Source: Nocardioidaceae bacterium SCSIO 66511
Lineage (GTDB): Bacteria > Actinomycetota > Actinomycetes > Propionibacteriales > Nocardioidaceae
Assembly: GCA_023100825.1 (NCBI GenBank)
Contig: CP095846.1
Location: 4,340,001-4,404,000, forward strand
Reading direction: 5' to 3'
DNA: 64,000 nt
The translations under genes were made by a program, and so were the position numbers. Below are positions 31,880-53,234 of the stretch, one piece after another. Each line of letters opens with the position of its first letter. The stretch's first letter is position 1. The notes below the pieces were generated by a model. That model searched no databases. It had not been told where the DNA came from and saw only the letters and a list, made by a program, of their open reading frames with translations.

Positions 31880-32025
31880 TCCCGTACCGGTGGTCGCTGG
31901 TGTACCAGCGCGCATGGAAACCGGTCACTGTGCACGGCGTACTTGCCGTGCAGGGTGGAGTGTTGCCGCGCAAAGCGCGGAGGAAGTGGTGGTTCACCAT
32001 GTCTACTTGGTGAAGCACCACCGGC
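31880..32025 (-). repeat. hairpin-rich intergenic element, copy 1
   Basis: Read on the minus strand, this stretch aligns with 51499-51612. Its hairpins in that order are 32021-32008/31999-31986 (13 of 14 pairs, loop AGTAGACA), 31980-31975/31971-31966, 31952-31945/31938-31931 (TGCACGGC against GCCGTGCA) and 31910-31905/31900-31895. The first hairpin core TTCACCA/TGGTGAA and the block GACCGGTT are shared with copy 2. No convincing reading frame is conserved between the copies. It lies in the gap between bkdA and the subtilase. Confidence 0.7.
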
Positions 32026-46634: not shown

Positions 46635-46714
46635 TCCGACACTCAGATCATAGCGGTCGACAGGCCCGGGCGGCGAACGAACGGGGTGATCGGCGATCGG
46701 GCAGAATCGGGGCC

Positions 46715-47380
46715 GTGTACGACGCACTCGAGTTCGAGCACAGCTCGACGGTCGAACGCGTTGCCGAGGCACTGCGGCACGCGCTGTTCGCGGGCGACCT
46801 CGTACCGGGAACCCCGCTGCGCGAGGTGGCGCTCGCCGACCAGCTCGGCGTTGCGCGCAGCACCGTGCGCGAGGCGCTGACCCAGCTCACCGGCGAAGGC
46901 CTGGTGACCCGCAAGCCGAACCGCGGAGTCGCGGTCACGTCGTACGACCGCGACCAGGTGCACGACCTCGTGGACGCTCGACTCGTCGTCGAACGCGCCG
47001 GCGCGCACTCCTGGGCCGATGCCGAACCCGCGCTTCGCGATGCCGTGCATGCGTCGCTGTCGCGGTACGAAGAGCTCGCGGAGTCCGGTGCCACGGCCCG
47101 CGACATCACCGAGGCACATCTGGACTTCCACCGCCGCATCGTGGGGCTCACCGGCAACGAACGCCTCTCAGCGCTCGCCGACCAGCTCTACGCCGAGATC
47201 CGGCTGGCACTCGCGCATCTCGACCGCCTGCGCAGTAACGCCCGGGCCCAGATCGCTGACCATCGCCGGCTGCTGGAGCTGATCGAGACGTCCGACGCCG
47301 CTACGGTCGATGCCGCGCTACGCGAGCACCTCGAGAATGCCGAGACGTCGATCCGCGACGCGCTGCTCGCCGACTGGTAG
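46715..47380 (+). CDS. GntR family regulator, FCD subfamily
   Basis: A 221-residue regulator with a winged helix (about residues 10-75; LGVARSTVREALTQLTGEGL is the recognition region) and an FCD domain with AHLDFHRRIVGLTGNERL and QIADHRRLLELIE. GTG 46715 is the only start that gives a normal N-terminus; the frame is open further upstream but that is antisense to the DDAH gene. It diverges from the DDAH-like hydrolase and most likely represses it through the TTGTC-GACAA site. The FCD ligand is probably an arginine derivative or a downstream acid. Confidence 0.87.
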   Translation: MYDALEFEHSSTVERVAEALRHALFAGDLVPGTPLREVALADQLGVARSTVREALTQLTGEGLVTRKPNRGVAVTSYDRDQVHDLVDARLVVERAGAHSWADAEPALRDAVHASLSRYEELAESGATARDITEAHLDFHRRIVGLTGNERLSALADQLYAEIRLALAHLDRLRSNARAQIADHRRLLELIETSDAATVDAALREHLENAETSIRDALLADW

Positions 47381-47472: not shown

Positions 47473-47850
47473 GTGATTCGACTCATCGCCAGCTGGATCT
47501 TCAGCGCTGGAGCGATCGCGGTCGCGGCATGGCTGTTCGACAGCGTCGAGATCGGCGGCACCGACCGCAACGACGAGCTCATCACCCTCGCGATCGTGGC
47601 CGCGGTGTTCGCTCTGATCGATACGTTCGTCGCGCCGATCATCAAGCTGCTCTCGCTGCCGTTCATCATCGTCACGCTCGGGTTGGCGCTCATCGTCATC
47701 AACGCACTGCTGCTGATGCTCACCGCCAACATCGCCGACGCCGTCGGCGCCCAGTTCGTCGTCGACGGGTTCTGGGCAGCCGTATGGGGCTCGATCGTGA
47801 TCTCGATCGTCAACGCGATCCTGCACGCGGTCTTCGACGTCGGCGACTGA
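47473..47850 (+). CDS. phage-holin-4-like small membrane protein
   Basis: A 125-residue protein with four predicted membrane helices (about 2-20, 37-55, 60-87 and 98-118). LFDSVEIGG and ITLAIVAAVFALIDTFVAPIIKLLSLPF match the actinobacterial family called Mycobacterial 4 TMS phage holin superfamily IV. Despite that name the genes are chromosomal, widespread and of unknown role; this is not evidence of a prophage. GTG 47473 is used. The phosphatase gene begins ten bases downstream. Confidence 0.82.
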   Translation: MIRLIASWIFSAGAIAVAAWLFDSVEIGGTDRNDELITLAIVAAVFALIDTFVAPIIKLLSLPFIIVTLGLALIVINALLLMLTANIADAVGAQFVVDGFWAAVWGSIVISIVNAILHAVFDVGD

Positions 47851-47860
47851 GCGCTTTCCC

Positions 47861-48376
47861 ATGACGGCACTTCCACCACCACACGATCCCGACGGCCCGT
47901 ACCGCATCGCGGTCGTCTGCCTGGGCAACATCTGCCGCTCGCCGATGGCCGAGGTCGTGCTCACCGATGCGCTCGACGACGCGGGACTGAGCGACCGGGT
48001 CCACGTCGCATCGAGTGGCACGGGCGGCTGGCACTCGGGTGAGGGCATGGACGACCGCGCCGCGGCGACGCTCGAGTCGGCCGGCCACGACCCGAGCCGC
48101 CACCGGGCGCAACAGTTCGACGCCGGTTGGTTCGACGAGTACGACCTGATCCTGACCATGGACCACTCCAACTACCAGGACGTACGCGCCCTCGCCCGCT
48201 CCGCCGACGACGCAGCGCGAGTGCGGATGTTTCGCGCGTACGACCCGCAGGCATCCGAGGGCGACGACCAGGTGCCCGACCCGTGGTACGGCGGACGCAG
48301 CGGCTTCGACCGGGTGCTCGAGATGGTCGAACGCACAGCGAAATCGCTCACGGACCGGCTCGAGACCACGGCCTGA
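47861..48376 (+). CDS. low-molecular-weight protein-tyrosine phosphatase family enzyme
   Basis: A 171-residue LMW-PTP. VCLGNICRSP contains the C-x5-R loop (Cys20, Arg26), and the general acid Asp140 lies in VPDPWYGG. Relatives dephosphorylate protein tyrosine. One branch is reported to remove phosphate from protein-bound ribulosamine-5-phosphate and erythrulosamine-4-phosphate, preparing them for fructosamine-kinase-family enzymes. The fructosamine-kinase homologue 48 bases downstream makes that role attractive here. It follows the holin-like gene by ten bases. Confidence 0.9.
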   Translation: MTALPPPHDPDGPYRIAVVCLGNICRSPMAEVVLTDALDDAGLSDRVHVASSGTGGWHSGEGMDDRAAATLESAGHDPSRHRAQQFDAGWFDEYDLILTMDHSNYQDVRALARSADDAARVRMFRAYDPQASEGDDQVPDPWYGGRSGFDRVLEMVERTAKSLTDRLETTA

Positions 48377-48423
48377 GTCGGCGACATCAGCGCAGTTCCG
48401 CCCCGACCCGGTAACGTCGAGGC

Positions 48424-49305
48424 ATGGCAAGGATGTCTGGTATCGCTTCTCGGGCCGAGCGGCTGCTCGGCATCAGCGTCATCTCGACGACTCCCGTCGC
48501 CGGCGGCGACATCTGCACGAGCACTCGCCTGCGCCTGTCCGATGGGCGCAGCGCGATCGCCAAGACCCGACCCAACACCCCGCCCGACTTCTTCGCCCGT
48601 GAGGCCGCCGGGCTGCGGTGGCTCGCCGAGGCAGACAGCGCCCACGTACCCGATGTGCTCGGGGTCGCCGACGACTGCCTGCTGATCGACTGGGTCGAGC
48701 CGGGCAAACCCTCACCCGAGGCGGCCGCCGAGTTCGGCCACGAGTTGGCCCGAATGCATGCGGCGGGTTCTGACACCTTCGGCGCAGCTGACGACGGCTA
48801 CATCGGGCTCGCCCCGCTGCCCAACAAGCCCGCCGACACCTGGCCGGAGTTCTACGCCACCCGCCGGGTACTCCCGTACCTCAAGCTCGCCCGCGACCGC
48901 GACGCCATCTCCACCGACGACGCGGCACCGATCGAGACGCTGATGCAGCGCATCACGGAGTTCTCGGGCCCGGCCGAGGAGCCCGCCCGCATCCACGGGG
49001 ACCTGTGGTCGGGCAACATCGTCTGGGGCACCGACGGCGCCGTACACCTGATCGATCCCGCCGCACACGGCGGTCACCGGGAGACCGACATCGCGATGCT
49101 TTCGCTGTTCGGTGCACCGCATCTGCAGCGCATCCTCGAGGCTTACGAGGAGCAGGCGCCGCTCGCCGACGACTGGCGCGCTCGACTCCCACTGCATCAG
49201 CTGCACCCACTGCTCGTGCACGCGGCACTGTTCGGCGGCGGATACGGAGCACGCGCCGGCGCTGCGGCCGCATCCGTGCTCGACGGTACGGCCGGGCAGG
49301 AATAG
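48424..49305 (+). CDS. fructosamine/ribulosamine 3-kinase family protein
   Basis: A 293-residue aminoglycoside-phosphotransferase-fold kinase. GGDICTSTRLRLSDGRSAIAK-type N-lobe residues (about 27-47) match fructosamine kinases. HGDLWSGNIV (191-200) is the Brenner motif with catalytic Asp193, and LIDPAAHGGHRETDIAML (from about 209) holds the metal-binding DP and the family's GHRE. Bacterial members phosphorylate ketoamines (mainly ribulosamines and erythrulosamines) on proteins at O3, which makes them fall off and so deglycates the protein. Its stop is three bases before the response regulator start, tying it to the MprAB-like system. Confidence 0.9.
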   Translation: MARMSGIASRAERLLGISVISTTPVAGGDICTSTRLRLSDGRSAIAKTRPNTPPDFFAREAAGLRWLAEADSAHVPDVLGVADDCLLIDWVEPGKPSPEAAAEFGHELARMHAAGSDTFGAADDGYIGLAPLPNKPADTWPEFYATRRVLPYLKLARDRDAISTDDAAPIETLMQRITEFSGPAEEPARIHGDLWSGNIVWGTDGAVHLIDPAAHGGHRETDIAMLSLFGAPHLQRILEAYEEQAPLADDWRARLPLHQLHPLLVHAALFGGGYGARAGAAAASVLDGTAGQE

Positions 49306-49308
49306 ACC

Positions 49309-50010
49309 GTGGACGAGATGAAGGTGCTCGTCGTCGACGACGACCGGGCCGTACGCGACTCGCTGAGGCGATCACTGGAGTTCAACGGTTACGCGGTCGA
49401 CGTCGCCGCCGATGGCGCGGAGGCGCTCGCGCGAGTCCCCTTGATCGACCCGGACGCGATCATCATGGACGTGATGATGCCGCGGCTCGACGGGCTCGAG
49501 GCGACCCGCGCCCTACGCGATGCGGGCAACGACGTCGCGATCCTCGTACTCACGGCGCGCGACGCGGTCGACGACCGCGTCGACGGCCTCGATGCCGGTG
49601 CCGACGACTACCTCACCAAACCGTTCGCACTCGAAGAGCTACTCGCCCGCGTACGCGCGTTGCTGCGGCGCATGTCGCGTACCGCCGACGACGACGAGGA
49701 GTCGACCCAGCTCGCATTCGCCGACCTCACCCTCGACACCGCGACCCGCGAGGTCATGCGCGGCGAACGCGCCGTCTCGCTGACCCGCACAGAGTTCGCG
49801 CTGCTGGAGCTGTTCATGCAGCGACCGCGCCGGGTGCTCGAGCGGTCGTTCATCCTCGAGGAGGTGTGGGGATTCGACTTCCCTACATCGGCGAACTCGC
49901 TGGAGGTGTACGTCGGCTACGTACGCCGCAAGCTCGAGTCCGAGGATGAGCCGCGGCTGCTGCACACCGTACGCGGAGTCGGGTACGTGCTCCGCGAGAG
50001 CCCACCGTGA
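49309..50010 (+). CDS. mprA: OmpR-family response regulator, MprA-like
   Basis: A 233-residue two-component regulator. The receiver domain (4-115) has acidic VDDD, phospho-acceptor Asp54 (IIMDVMMP), Thr in VLTARD and Lys in YLTKPF. The winged-helix DNA-binding domain (about 135-230) ends [16 protein letters not shown] and VRGVGYVLR. The order MprA-MprB-HtrA is the same as in mycobacteria, where the system answers envelope stress. GTG 49309 has AGGAA at good distance; an ATG at 49318 is also possible. It overlaps the histidine kinase start. Probable targets are the direct repeats before htrA. Confidence 0.88.
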
Positions 50011-51461
50011 TCGAGATGGGTGAACGCGAACCGGACACTGCCCCCGCGGCATCCCAACCCGACCGCTCGACGGGCCTCGTACCCAGCCTGCGCGAGCAGG
50101 TATCCGACCGGGTTTCGCTCGCGGCCCGGATCACCCTGCTCACAACGGTGGCCGTCGGTCTCACGATCGCTGCCGTCGGGGTGACGATCTTCCTGACCGT
50201 ACGCACCGAGGTCAACCACTCGCTGGACACCTCACTGGTCAAACGTGCGCACGCCGTCGCCGACTCGCCGGAGGCCGCGGAGCAAATGCGCACGGGCGAG
50301 GTGCCGGGCGCGTTGGCCGCCGCCGACATCCTGATCGCACTCATCACACCCGATGGCACGTGGGCGATGGACGACCTCGGCCCCGCCCTCGGCGACCCGG
50401 AGCGAGCGGTCGCCAACGGCGTCAACGCCGAGTCGATCCGCACCGTGACGATCTACGACCGGCCGTACCGCGTGGTCGCCGTACAGTCCGGACACGGCAC
50501 CTCCGTCGTCGTCGCGCAGTCGATGCAGTCGAGTGCGCGTACGCTCGACCGGCTCGAGATCGCATTGTGGGTCGTCGGAGCGGCGGGCGTCATCGTCGCC
50601 GGCATCGCGGGGTGGCTGGTCGCCACCAACTCTCTGCGCCCCGTACGCCGGCTCACCCGTGCGGCCGAGCGGGTCGCCCGCACCGAGCAGCTCACGCCAA
50701 TCGAGGTGACCGGCGACGACGAGCTCGCGCGGCTCACCATCGCCTTCAACTCGATGCTCACGTCTCTCGATGCGTCCAAGCAACGCCAACGCCAGCTGGT
50801 GGCAGACGCCGGACACGAGCTCCGTACGCCGCTCACCAGTTTGCGTACGAACATCGAGCTGCTCAGCCAGGCCGAAGCGAAGGGCGGACTCGCGCCACGC
50901 GCACGCGGCGAGCTGATGGCCGACGTACGCGCTCAGATCGGCGAGCTGACCACCCTCGTCGGCGATCTCGTCGAGCTCGCCCGCGACACGTCGCCGAAGA
51001 GCGCGCCGGAGCCGATCGACCTGTCGGAGATCCTGATGAACTGCGTGCAGCGCGTACGTCTGCGCGCGCCGGGTATCGAGTTCAACGTCGAAAGCGAGCC
51101 TTGGGTGGTCGTCGGCGACGGCCAGTTGCTCGAGCGGGCCGTGACCAATCTGCTCGACAATGCCGCGAAGTGGAGCCCCCCGCTGGGCACCGTGACCGTA
51201 CGACTGCGCGACGGAGTCCTCACCGTGGCCGACACCGGCCCCGGCATCAACGAAGAGGACCTCCCGCATGTGTTCGAGCGGTTCTACCGTTCCCGCGAGG
51301 CGCGGATGCTGCCCGGGTCCGGCCTCGGCCTGGCAATCGTCGCGCAGGCGGCCGGCCGGCACGGCGGTGCAGTCACCGCACGTCGCGCCCCGTCGGGTGG
51401 CGCGCTGATGACGCTCACGATTCCCGGCAAGCCGCCGAGCCAGGTGCCCGACGACAGCTGA
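50007..51461 (+). CDS. mprB: sensor histidine kinase, MprB-like
   Basis: A 484-residue membrane kinase. The first membrane helix (about 40-66) and second (about 183-206) enclose a 115-residue extracytoplasmic sensor. HAMP follows ([18 protein letters not shown]), then HisKA with phospho-acceptor His270 in [10 protein letters not shown]. The ATPase domain has [10 protein letters not shown] (N box), DTGPGI (G1) and GSGLGLAIV (G2). It starts with GTG overlapping the regulator's TGA. A structured non-coding stretch of nearly 400 bases separates it from htrA. It presumably senses misfolded or damaged envelope protein. Confidence 0.9.
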
Positions 51462-51498: not shown

Positions 51499-51612
51499 GC
51501 CCGGTGGTGCTTCACCAAGTAAGCATGGTGAAGTACCGCTTTGCACGGCAGGAACACCGTGCAAAGCGACTGGTTGCCGCGCCCGTTGGTACGTACGTGG
51601 CCACCGTGGCAC
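51499..51612 (+). repeat. hairpin-rich intergenic element, copy 2
   Basis: Homologous to 31880-32025 read in reverse. Hairpin 1 pairs 51506-51517 with 51526-51537 (core TTCACCA/TGGTGAA, loop AGTAAGCA; copy 1 has loop AGTAGACA). Hairpin 2 pairs 51538-51548 with 51557-51567 (GCTTTGCACGG/CCGTGCAAAGC, 11 perfect pairs). Shared single-stranded blocks include GACTGGTT and GTTGGTAC. A competing GGTG/CACC stem could form with the left arm of hairpin 1. No protein frame is conserved between the copies. Confidence 0.7.
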
Positions 51613-51659
51613 AAGTCCTCTCACTCGTACCCGTCGCGCGTCGTCGGCGCCGACCGTGG

Positions 51660-51691
51660 TGCGGTTTGCCCTGGTACCAAGGCAAACCGCA
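51660..51691 (+). other. perfect 11-bp hairpin
   Basis: TGCGGTTTGCC (51660-51670) pairs with GGCAAACCGCA (51681-51691). The ten-base loop itself contains the palindrome TGGTACCA. It could end mprAB transcription or be part of the larger structured region. Confidence 0.65.
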
Positions 51692-51707
51692 GCCCGCAGC
51701 CGTACGC

Positions 51708-51770
51708 CCCAAGGCAAATGGTCACTGTCCCAAGGGACACTCCCCGTGGACAGTGACAACCGCCCTTGGG
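51708..51770 (+). other. nested hairpin upstream of htrA
   Basis: GTCACTGTCC (51721-51730) pairs with GGACAGTGAC (51748-51757), enclosed by CCCAAGG (51708-51714) with CCTTGGG (51764-51770). With the preceding hairpins it completes the structured part of the 393-base gap between mprB and htrA; nothing else gene-like is seen in that gap apart from the repeats at 51814. Confidence 0.6.
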
Positions 51771-51813
51771 AAGTAGGACGGAGTTCCGCAGATCTTCAGA
51801 CATGTCACAATCG

Positions 51814-51833
51814 CATCTCAGGCACATCTCAGC
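51814..51833. promoter_or_regulatory. direct repeats, candidate MprA-like response regulator site
   Basis: CATCTCAGG (51814-51822) and CATCTCAGC (51825-51833) repeat with an 11-base period, one helical turn, as OmpR-family dimers require. They lie 22 bases before the htrA start and downstream of the hairpins, so htrA probably has its own regulated promoter. Confidence 0.6.
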
Positions 51834-51854
51834 CACGCGGCACATCCTTGACGT

Positions 51855-53234
51855 ATGAGCGCTGGAGATAGGAACGCTGGAGACATGAACGACGGGCGAC
51901 CCCCTGAGCAGCAGCCGGCCTCCGAGCCGACGCCGCGACCGACACCCTCGCAGGCGTACGGTCCGCCGCCGGGTATGCCGCCCGGTCAGCCGAGCCAGCC
52001 CGCGTACGGCCGGCCGGAGCCGACGACGCAGTTCACGCATCGGTTCCCGACGGGCCCCGGCGTCGCCGAATCCGGTCAGCCGTCTGTTGGCCCCCAAGCG
52101 GCGCCCCAGTCCGAGCGCAATCGGCGACCACGCCTCGGACTGCTGGTCGGCGCGGCACTCGTCGCCGGTCTCGTCGGCGGCGGTGCGGGCGCGGCCGGGA
52201 TCAACGCGCTCAATGACGACAATTCGTCAGGGTCGACGGATACCGCCGTATCCGGTACGTCGCTGTCGCAGCAGGTGTCGTCGACCGACAAGAAGCTGAA
52301 GAGCGGCACCATCGAATCGGTTGCCGCGAAGGTGCGCCCGTCGGTCGTACAGATCAATGTCTCGGGCTCGGGCATGGCCGACAGCGGCACCGGCATCATC
52401 ATCAGCAAGGACGGCAAGATCCTCACCAACAACCATGTGGTCGAGGCCGCCGCAGAGAACGGCACCATCACGGTCGCGTTCGACGACAACACCACCGCGA
52501 AGGCCGAGATCATCGGCCGCGACCCGGTGACCGATATCGCGGTGATCCAGGCGCAGGACGTCTCCGACCTCGAGCCGGCAACTCTCGGCAAGTCCGCCGA
52601 TCTGAAGGTCGGTCAGGACGTCGTCGCGGTCGGCTCGCCGTTCGGCCTGGAGAGCACGGTGACAAGCGGCATCGTCAGTGCGCTCAACCGCCCCGTCTCG
52701 GCCGGCGACGGCTCCGGGCAGACGTCGAACGTCTACCCGGCGATCCAGACCGATGCTGCCATCAACCCCGGCAACTCGGGCGGTCCGCTGGTCGATATGA
52801 ACGGCAACGTCATCGGCATCAACTCCAGCATCCGCAGCAACTCCTCGGGCTCCGAGGCGGGCTCGATCGGCCTCGGCTTCGCCATCCCGATCGACCTCGC
52901 CCGCAACATCGCCAGCCAGGTGATCGACGGTCAGACCGTCCAACACGCGCAGATCGGCATCAGCGTCAAGGACTCGACCGGCTCGGACGATATGACCACG
53001 AACGGCGCGTTGGTCAGCAGCGTCGAGAAGGGCAGCCCCGGCGACGACGCGGAACTCAAGTCAGGTGACGTCATCACCAAGCTGAACTCCGATGTCATCA
53101 CCGGCTCCCAGTCGCTGGTCGCGACAATCCGCGGGTACGCTCCCGGCGACACCGTCGAGCTCACGTACACCCGCGACGGTGACGAGCAGACGACGGACGT
53201 CGAGCTGGGCTCCGACAGCGGGCAGGCTCCCTGA
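51855..53234 (+). CDS. membrane-anchored HtrA/PepD serine protease
   Basis: A 459-residue envelope protease. A Pro/Gln/Gly-rich cytoplasmic tail (1-90) precedes a single membrane helix (about 94-118). The trypsin-like domain has His194 (TNNHVV), Asp227 (DPVTDIAV) and Ser308 (GNSGGPLV), and one PDZ domain follows (about 365-455; ISVKDSTG to DTVELTYTRDG). It should degrade or refold damaged extracytoplasmic proteins. ATG 51855 is given, but ATG 51885 (MNDGRPP), which follows CTGGAGAC, is equally possible and changes only the disordered tail. Downstream of mprAB it matches the mycobacterial mprAB-pepD order, and the repeats at 51814 suggest control by the system. Confidence 0.92.
   Translation: MSAGDRNAGDMNDGRPPEQQPASEPTPRPTPSQAYGPPPGMPPGQPSQPAYGRPEPTTQFTHRFPTGPGVAESGQPSVGPQAAPQSERNRRPRLGLLVGAALVAGLVGGGAGAAGINALNDDNSSGSTDTAVSGTSLSQQVSSTDKKLKSGTIESVAAKVRPSVVQINVSGSGMADSGTGIIISKDGKILTNNHVVEAAAENGTITVAFDDNTTAKAEIIGRDPVTDIAVIQAQDVSDLEPATLGKSADLKVGQDVVAVGSPFGLESTVTSGIVSALNRPVSAGDGSGQTSNVYPAIQTDAAINPGNSGGPLVDMNGNVIGINSSIRSNSSGSEAGSIGLGFAIPIDLARNIASQVIDGQTVQHAQIGISVKDSTGSDDMTTNGALVSSVEKGSPGDDAELKSGDVITKLNSDVITGSQSLVATIRGYAPGDTVELTYTRDGDEQTTDVELGSDSGQAP

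Follow-up and report, generated by a model that had tools for sequence, protein, structure and literature searches.

A predicted ketosamine-repair pair beside an MprAB-like stress module in an actinobacterial family, and probable coupling of kinase and regulator in one genus

When the genes of a predicted protein-deglycation pair end three bases from an envelope-stress operon, do the two belong to one response, or are they only neighbors? The question arises in a 64,000-nucleotide stretch of the Nocardioidaceae bacterium SCSIO 66511 genome (CP095846.1, positions 4,340,001 to 4,404,000 of a single 4.6-Mb contig), which we refer to as the window. To our knowledge, the control of protein deglycation in bacteria is poorly understood. 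The initial annotation of the window proposed that a low-molecular-weight protein tyrosine phosphatase (LMW-PTP) and a fructosamine-kinase homolog form a deglycation pair linked to envelope stress control, and that chemical repair of glycated protein and proteolysis of damaged envelope protein may be a single response. The reading that we favor, at a probability of about 60%, is that a repair pair stands beside a separate stress module, and that in the window's genus the stress regulator is driven from the kinase promoter. The locus offers a conserved setting, across a whole actinobacterial family, in which glycation repair can be tested against envelope stress.

The locus and its predicted enzymes

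The features of the locus are as follows, in window coordinates.

46643..47380, + strand: GntR/FCD regulator (PF00392, 67.1 bits; PF07729, 57.7 bits), outside the finding
47473..47850, + strand: small membrane protein of the 'Phage_holin_4_2' family (PF04020, 92.2 bits)
47861..48376, + strand: LMW-PTP, 171 aa (PF01451 LMWPc, 136.1 bits)
48412..48417, + strand: candidate -10 hexamer TAACGT of a putative leaderless kinase promoter, 12 bases 5' of the ATG
48424..49305, + strand: fructosamine/ribulosamine 3-kinase family protein, 293 aa (PF03881 Fructosamin_kin, 176.6 bits)
49309..50010, + strand: OmpR-type response regulator, MprA-like (PF00072 Response_reg, PF00486 Trans_reg_C)
50007..51461, + strand: HAMP/HisKA/HATPase_c histidine kinase, MprB-like, with a 4-base overlap with the regulator stop
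51503..51774, no strand assigned: interspersed repeat of four hairpins, lying 3' of the sensor kinase and 5' of the htrA promoter, outside the proposed system
51792..51834, + strand: tandem half-sites with 11-base spacing before htrA, from the CTCAG box scan
51855..53234, + strand: HtrA/PepD-like serine protease with a PDZ domain (PF13365 Trypsin_2, PF13180 PDZ)

The Pfam matches agree with the gene identities given by the initial annotation (LMW-PTP, fructosamine-kinase family, MprAB-like, HtrA), and its phosphatase and kinase coordinates and the three-base gap to the regulator all proved correct by ORF and Pfam check. The kinase stop occupies 49303-49305 and the next open reading frame runs from GTG 49309, leaving 3 bases between them, with an in-frame ATG at 49318 as an alternative regulator start. 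The phosphatase and kinase are separated by 47 bases. Upstream, the stop of the holin-like gene lies 10 bases from the phosphatase start, making this gene the first of a unit with the phosphatase; downstream, the spacing between the sensor kinase and htrA is 393 bases, hairpin repeat included.

The kinase, which is encoded by a single-copy gene in this genome, matches PF03881 well above the cut-off of 22.4 bits (positions 19-282 of 288). Among solved structures, it matches 3f7w at 282 bits and the plant ribulosamine 3-kinase 6oid at 102 bits; the match to 3f7w, a putative fructosamine-3-kinase, is nearly full-length and is a relation of sequence only. The HGDLWSGN catalytic loop aligns with those of the human and plant enzymes. 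In human FN3K, D217 and W219 are essential (PMC13223202, section 6), and the alignment places the Asp and Trp of the HGDLW loop of the kinase at the equivalent positions. This stretch (H191-G192-D193-L194-W195) shows no variation in alignment A1, while human I25, essential too, falls outside the aligned stretch of the kinase. Of the non-essential human contacts, H288 and F292 are identical in the kinase and N287 and H291 are not, in an alignment read by eye. Records from Aeromicrobium and Nocardioidaceae make up the named relatives of the kinase (65-70% identity), with the exception of one distant Niabella sequence at 42%, which makes it very likely that family f1 of our sampled genomes, hereafter the family, is Nocardioidaceae.

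Class I LMW-PTPs are recognized by a C-X5-R-S P-loop and a downstream DP(Y/W)Y acid loop. The phosphatase carries both, as CLGNICRS and DPWYGG, and arsenate-reductase models reach just 20-25 bits on it against cut-offs of 174-215. Two further PF01451 matches in the genome score below this phosphatase. Among solved structures, M. tuberculosis PtpA (107 bits) and slr0328 (105 bits) come closest to it. The substrate is not decided by the sequence, and with PtpA as nearest solved relative, the enzyme could be a plain phosphotyrosine phosphatase.

A known kind of pair beside an mprAB-pepD-like module

Gemayel and colleagues reportedly described in 2007 (FEBS J 274:4360) that bacterial kinase homologs act on ribulosamines, that some LMW-PTPs remove a 5-phosphate, and that LMW-PTP and kinase genes are often neighbors. 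The locus has the same two families, with the phosphatase gene immediately 5' and on the same strand, and the two genes probably form a ketosamine-repair pair like those known from other bacteria, with both activities predicted. As judged from the families, the phosphatase would take the 5- (or 4-) phosphate off protein-bound ribulosamine or erythrulosamine phosphates, which would themselves arise from ribose 5-phosphate or erythrose 4-phosphate. Phosphorylation at C3 by the kinase would follow, upon which the adduct would fall off. The locus differs from the previously described arrangement in that an mprAB-like operon follows, and, in the window's genus, the kinase lies nearer to the regulator than to the phosphatase (3 versus 47 bases).

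To place this pair in context, we drew 148 Actinomycetes genomes evenly and, with a minimum of 40 bits, obtained a kinase match in 55 from outside the family. A strong LMW-PTP (at least 94 bits) is encoded immediately 5' of the kinase, in the same orientation, in 36/55. The 137 non-family genomes divide into 51 with both genes, 4 with the kinase only, 32 with the phosphatase only, and 50 with neither (Fisher p = 4e-11, relatedness uncorrected); several of the genomes with a solitary kinase come from families f7 and f22. The adjacency noted in the initial annotation is thus real and exceeds chance. These counts also bear on whether the phosphatase is instead a PtpA-like phosphotyrosine phosphatase, leaving the kinase alone as the repair enzyme. 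Both the similarity to PtpA and the 32/137 genomes in which a strong LMW-PTP occurs without a kinase would fit such a division, but the phosphatase adjoins the kinase in genomes from many families, a strong LMW-PTP is present in 51/55 of the kinase genomes, and LMW-PTPs are reported to be active on both kinds of substrate. We consider a phosphatase uninvolved in repair to be rather unlikely, though the strongest of the alternatives discussed here.

The PF04020 holin-like gene, which was absent from the initial annotation, is conserved with the pair, and in several other families it likewise precedes the pair, sometimes about one gene away.

The genes that follow the kinase have a known counterpart as well. 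In mycobacteria, PepD is encoded directly downstream of mprAB and is regulated by MprAB, according to PMC3062566, and the window has the same order of OmpR-type regulator, HAMP sensor kinase, and HtrA. The best solved relative of the window HtrA is M. tuberculosis PepD (246 bits). For the regulator, the best solved relatives are PrrA (210 bits) and PhoP (208 bits), with MprA unnamed among the best 60 listed, and none of the 25 NCBIfam models listed reaches its cut-off. We describe the regulator as MprA-like. The phosphatase/kinase arrangement and the mprAB-pepD module are each already known; a title-level search of the literature returned nothing on a link between the kinase and mprAB.

Within the family, this juxtaposition is highly conserved. 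Besides the window, we compared 39 family loci. The regulator lies 3' of the kinase in the same orientation in 38/39, the sensor kinase is present in 36/39 (contig ends account for two of the three misses), HtrA is detected in 28/39, and the phosphatase is upstream of the kinase in 34/39. The gene order, whose conservation had been put forward as a check on the initial proposal, is thus kept across the family. The intervals are less uniform: eight relatives (L059, L062, L065, L071, L080, L081, L090, and L092) have an insertion of 0.4-3 kb between kinase and regulator, and four have one of 0.6-2.7 kb between phosphatase and kinase. The GntR/FCD regulator is the upstream neighbor in part of the family loci. 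Outside the family, none of 20 loci picked for having the pair (one of them, L124, short) shows the pair followed by regulator, sensor kinase, and HtrA; two (L128 and L129) have distant regulator-like matches upstream. The proposed link between the pair and envelope stress control is partly supported within the family, where it is backed by synteny and, in the window's genus, by a gap of 3 bases in the window and 4 in its sister species, and it is gone beyond the family border.

Promoter signals and the probable direction of coupling

If the pair were controlled by the stress regulator, its promoters might be expected to share a site with htrA. Before htrA in the window, we first noticed a tandem CTCAG box (CTCAG n6 CTCAG) with an 11-base period, and the 17-mer at 51816-51832 is the sole perfect TCTCAGN5TCTCAG in the genome. 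The same box is found approximately 31-83 bases 5' of the regulator across the family. We scored it with a weight matrix built from 18 strict regulator sites, with leave-one-out for these and the htrA sites untrained, at a threshold of 7.9 bits (the 99th percentile of 2,310 gene-body stretches). With the window included, 32/39 regulator upstreams exceed the threshold (18 of the 32 with strict and 14 with degenerate sites) and 7/39 fail, while 14/29 htrA upstreams exceed it. When the spacers between sensor kinase and htrA are scanned whole, 26/32 beat all 50 shuffles. No box was detected before the other genes: GntR (0/17), holin-like gene (0/33), phosphatase (0/33), and kinase (0/41). With the box at the regulator and htrA and none at phosphatase or kinase, the two repair genes do not appear to be among the stress regulator's targets. 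The box is a putative regulator site, and another regulator, read-through, or a degenerate site may serve the pair.

The htrA promoter of the window's genus apparently has four half-sites in 11-base steps, compared to two before the regulator elsewhere. An attempt to define a regulon by genome-wide search was abandoned, as at most two mismatches gave 112 matches versus 161 in the reversed control; the perfect htrA site alone stands out, and five one-mismatch sites (L105-L109), inspected for overlapping ORFs, show no clear promoter context. He and Zahrt reportedly described an MprA box of M. tuberculosis in 2005. The MprA motif of C. glutamicum, given as TKTTAAGAAM in PMC12113857, is a different motif from the CTCAG box.

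A -10-like [TC]AnnnT hexamer follows the box before the regulator in 29/39 loci (control stretch 5/39), and one of the same kind precedes the holin-like gene in 25/33 (control 1), while just 3/33 precede the phosphatase (control 2). Before the kinase, TAnnnT is found in 22/39 (control stretches 0-1/39); these hexamers are short, and the regulator pattern is looser than the kinase pattern. Across 45 kinase loci, a set that includes named loci and one duplicate, TAnnnT lies exactly at -12/-13 in 27, in 4 of which it is the phosphatase stop codon. Kinases lacking the hexamer mostly overlap or abut the phosphatase. The TAACGT hexamer of the window is identical in its sister species. These conserved signals suggest four units in the family: holin-like gene with phosphatase; kinase; box with regulator and sensor kinase; and box with htrA. 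The kinase would often have its own leaderless promoter, either standing alone or coupled to the phosphatase. Since the window kinase has its own -10-like hexamer, phosphatase and kinase, even as a pair, may be two transcripts there.

In a few lineages, the boundary between kinase and regulator is altered. The box and -10 of the family type are absent before the regulator in the window and in two relatives, L078 and L086, and the kinase stop lies 12, 2, and 15 bases, respectively, from the core ATG of the regulator; in the sister species (L057), it lies 4 bases from the regulator GTG. All four of these gap-closed loci keep the kinase -10 (TAACGT, TAACGT, TAAGTT, and TAGGTT). Box loss with a closed gap is not confined to one clade and falls in at least three separate places in the tree: L078 groups with L061 and L086 with L072/L089, and these relatives keep full or degraded sites. 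In a further locus, L074, the box is lost and the -10 kept. A box shifted to another position upstream was sought on both strands in the window, L057, L078, L086, and L074, over the interval from htrA back to approximately 700 bases 5' of the holin-like gene; of the four top-scoring sites in each, none outside the htrA spacer exceeds 7.9 bits, and we rejected this explanation.

With the regulator box and promoter lost in the window's genus, the kinase promoter probably also drives the regulator. On the simplest account, the leaderless promoter of the kinase would have taken over the regulator, yielding a likely transcript of kinase, regulator, and sensor kinase, from which phosphatase and htrA look like separate transcripts. 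Such coupling would place the stress regulator under the kinase promoter rather than the repair pair under the stress regulator. The locus thus presents units with and without a stress-regulator-type box, and in the lineages named above a single transcript for kinase and regulator seems likely.

How much of the single-response proposal survives depends on which part is considered. As a model in which the pair, the MprAB-like system, and HtrA form one damage response with the pair as a regulator target, it is consistent with the family-wide gene order, with the co-directional genes and short gap of the window, and with the loss of the regulator promoter in the genus, which would make the regulator dependent on an upstream transcript. 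Gene order and the likely kinase-regulator transcript are the parts that hold. Regulation of repair and proteolysis together is not supported: no box was detected before phosphatase and kinase, when most regulators have it and htrA has its own. The model also has to contend with the end of the association at the family border and the kinase-regulator insertions in several relatives, and, from general knowledge, repair substrates are expected in the cytoplasm but HtrA acts outside it. We judge it improbable in this form.

At the other extreme, the two units could be unrelated and conserved side by side by descent, uncoupled even in this genus. The separate promoter-like signals in most of the family and the absence of linkage outside it are what such an arrangement predicts, but the 3-base gap and missing promoter give the regulator no evident start of its own, and gap closure with promoter loss has occurred in at least three places in the tree. 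This reading seems to us unlikely, if somewhat less so than the shared response. A stronger version of the coupling is conceivable, in which the kinase is transcriptionally fused to the two-component system so that the demand for sugar-damage repair sets the level of the regulator and, via the htrA box, of the protease, with the fusion having arisen several times; we hold this to be as doubtful as the shared response.

In the sister species, the kinase (L057, 5066-5950) is frameshifted near its C-terminus relative to the window, producing an apparent kinase-regulator fusion in a 533-aa open frame. Another frame contains the tail and stop that would be expected, and we reject a fusion protein; a frameshift or a sequencing or assembly error is more likely.

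An interspersed hairpin repeat before htrA

A four-hairpin element of approximately 270 bp (fold z = -6.6) lies in the spacer that separates the sensor kinase from the htrA box. We find at least 57 blastn matches to it in the genome (40/188 candidates scored). Sixteen near-complete copies, query included, align at 74-100% identity, and many others keep approximately the first 104 bases. By a simple composition test, 13/16 of the aligned copies have no overlap with a coding-like ORF. A pattern for the first hairpin has 46 matches versus 0 for the reversed control, with both strands counted for what is a near-palindrome. In the sister species, there are two short partial matches only, and the element is absent at the htrA site. 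No Rfam family reaches threshold in a search with the element. Just 1/63 consensus pairs shows change on both sides, variation consisting mostly of G-U exchanges, so that the case for the structure comes more from fold and conservation than from covariation. The repeat is possibly a non-autonomous mobile element or a structured RNA element. A copy of the first hairpin also lies within the window, at 31988-32019 (G000:C1:4371988-4372019).
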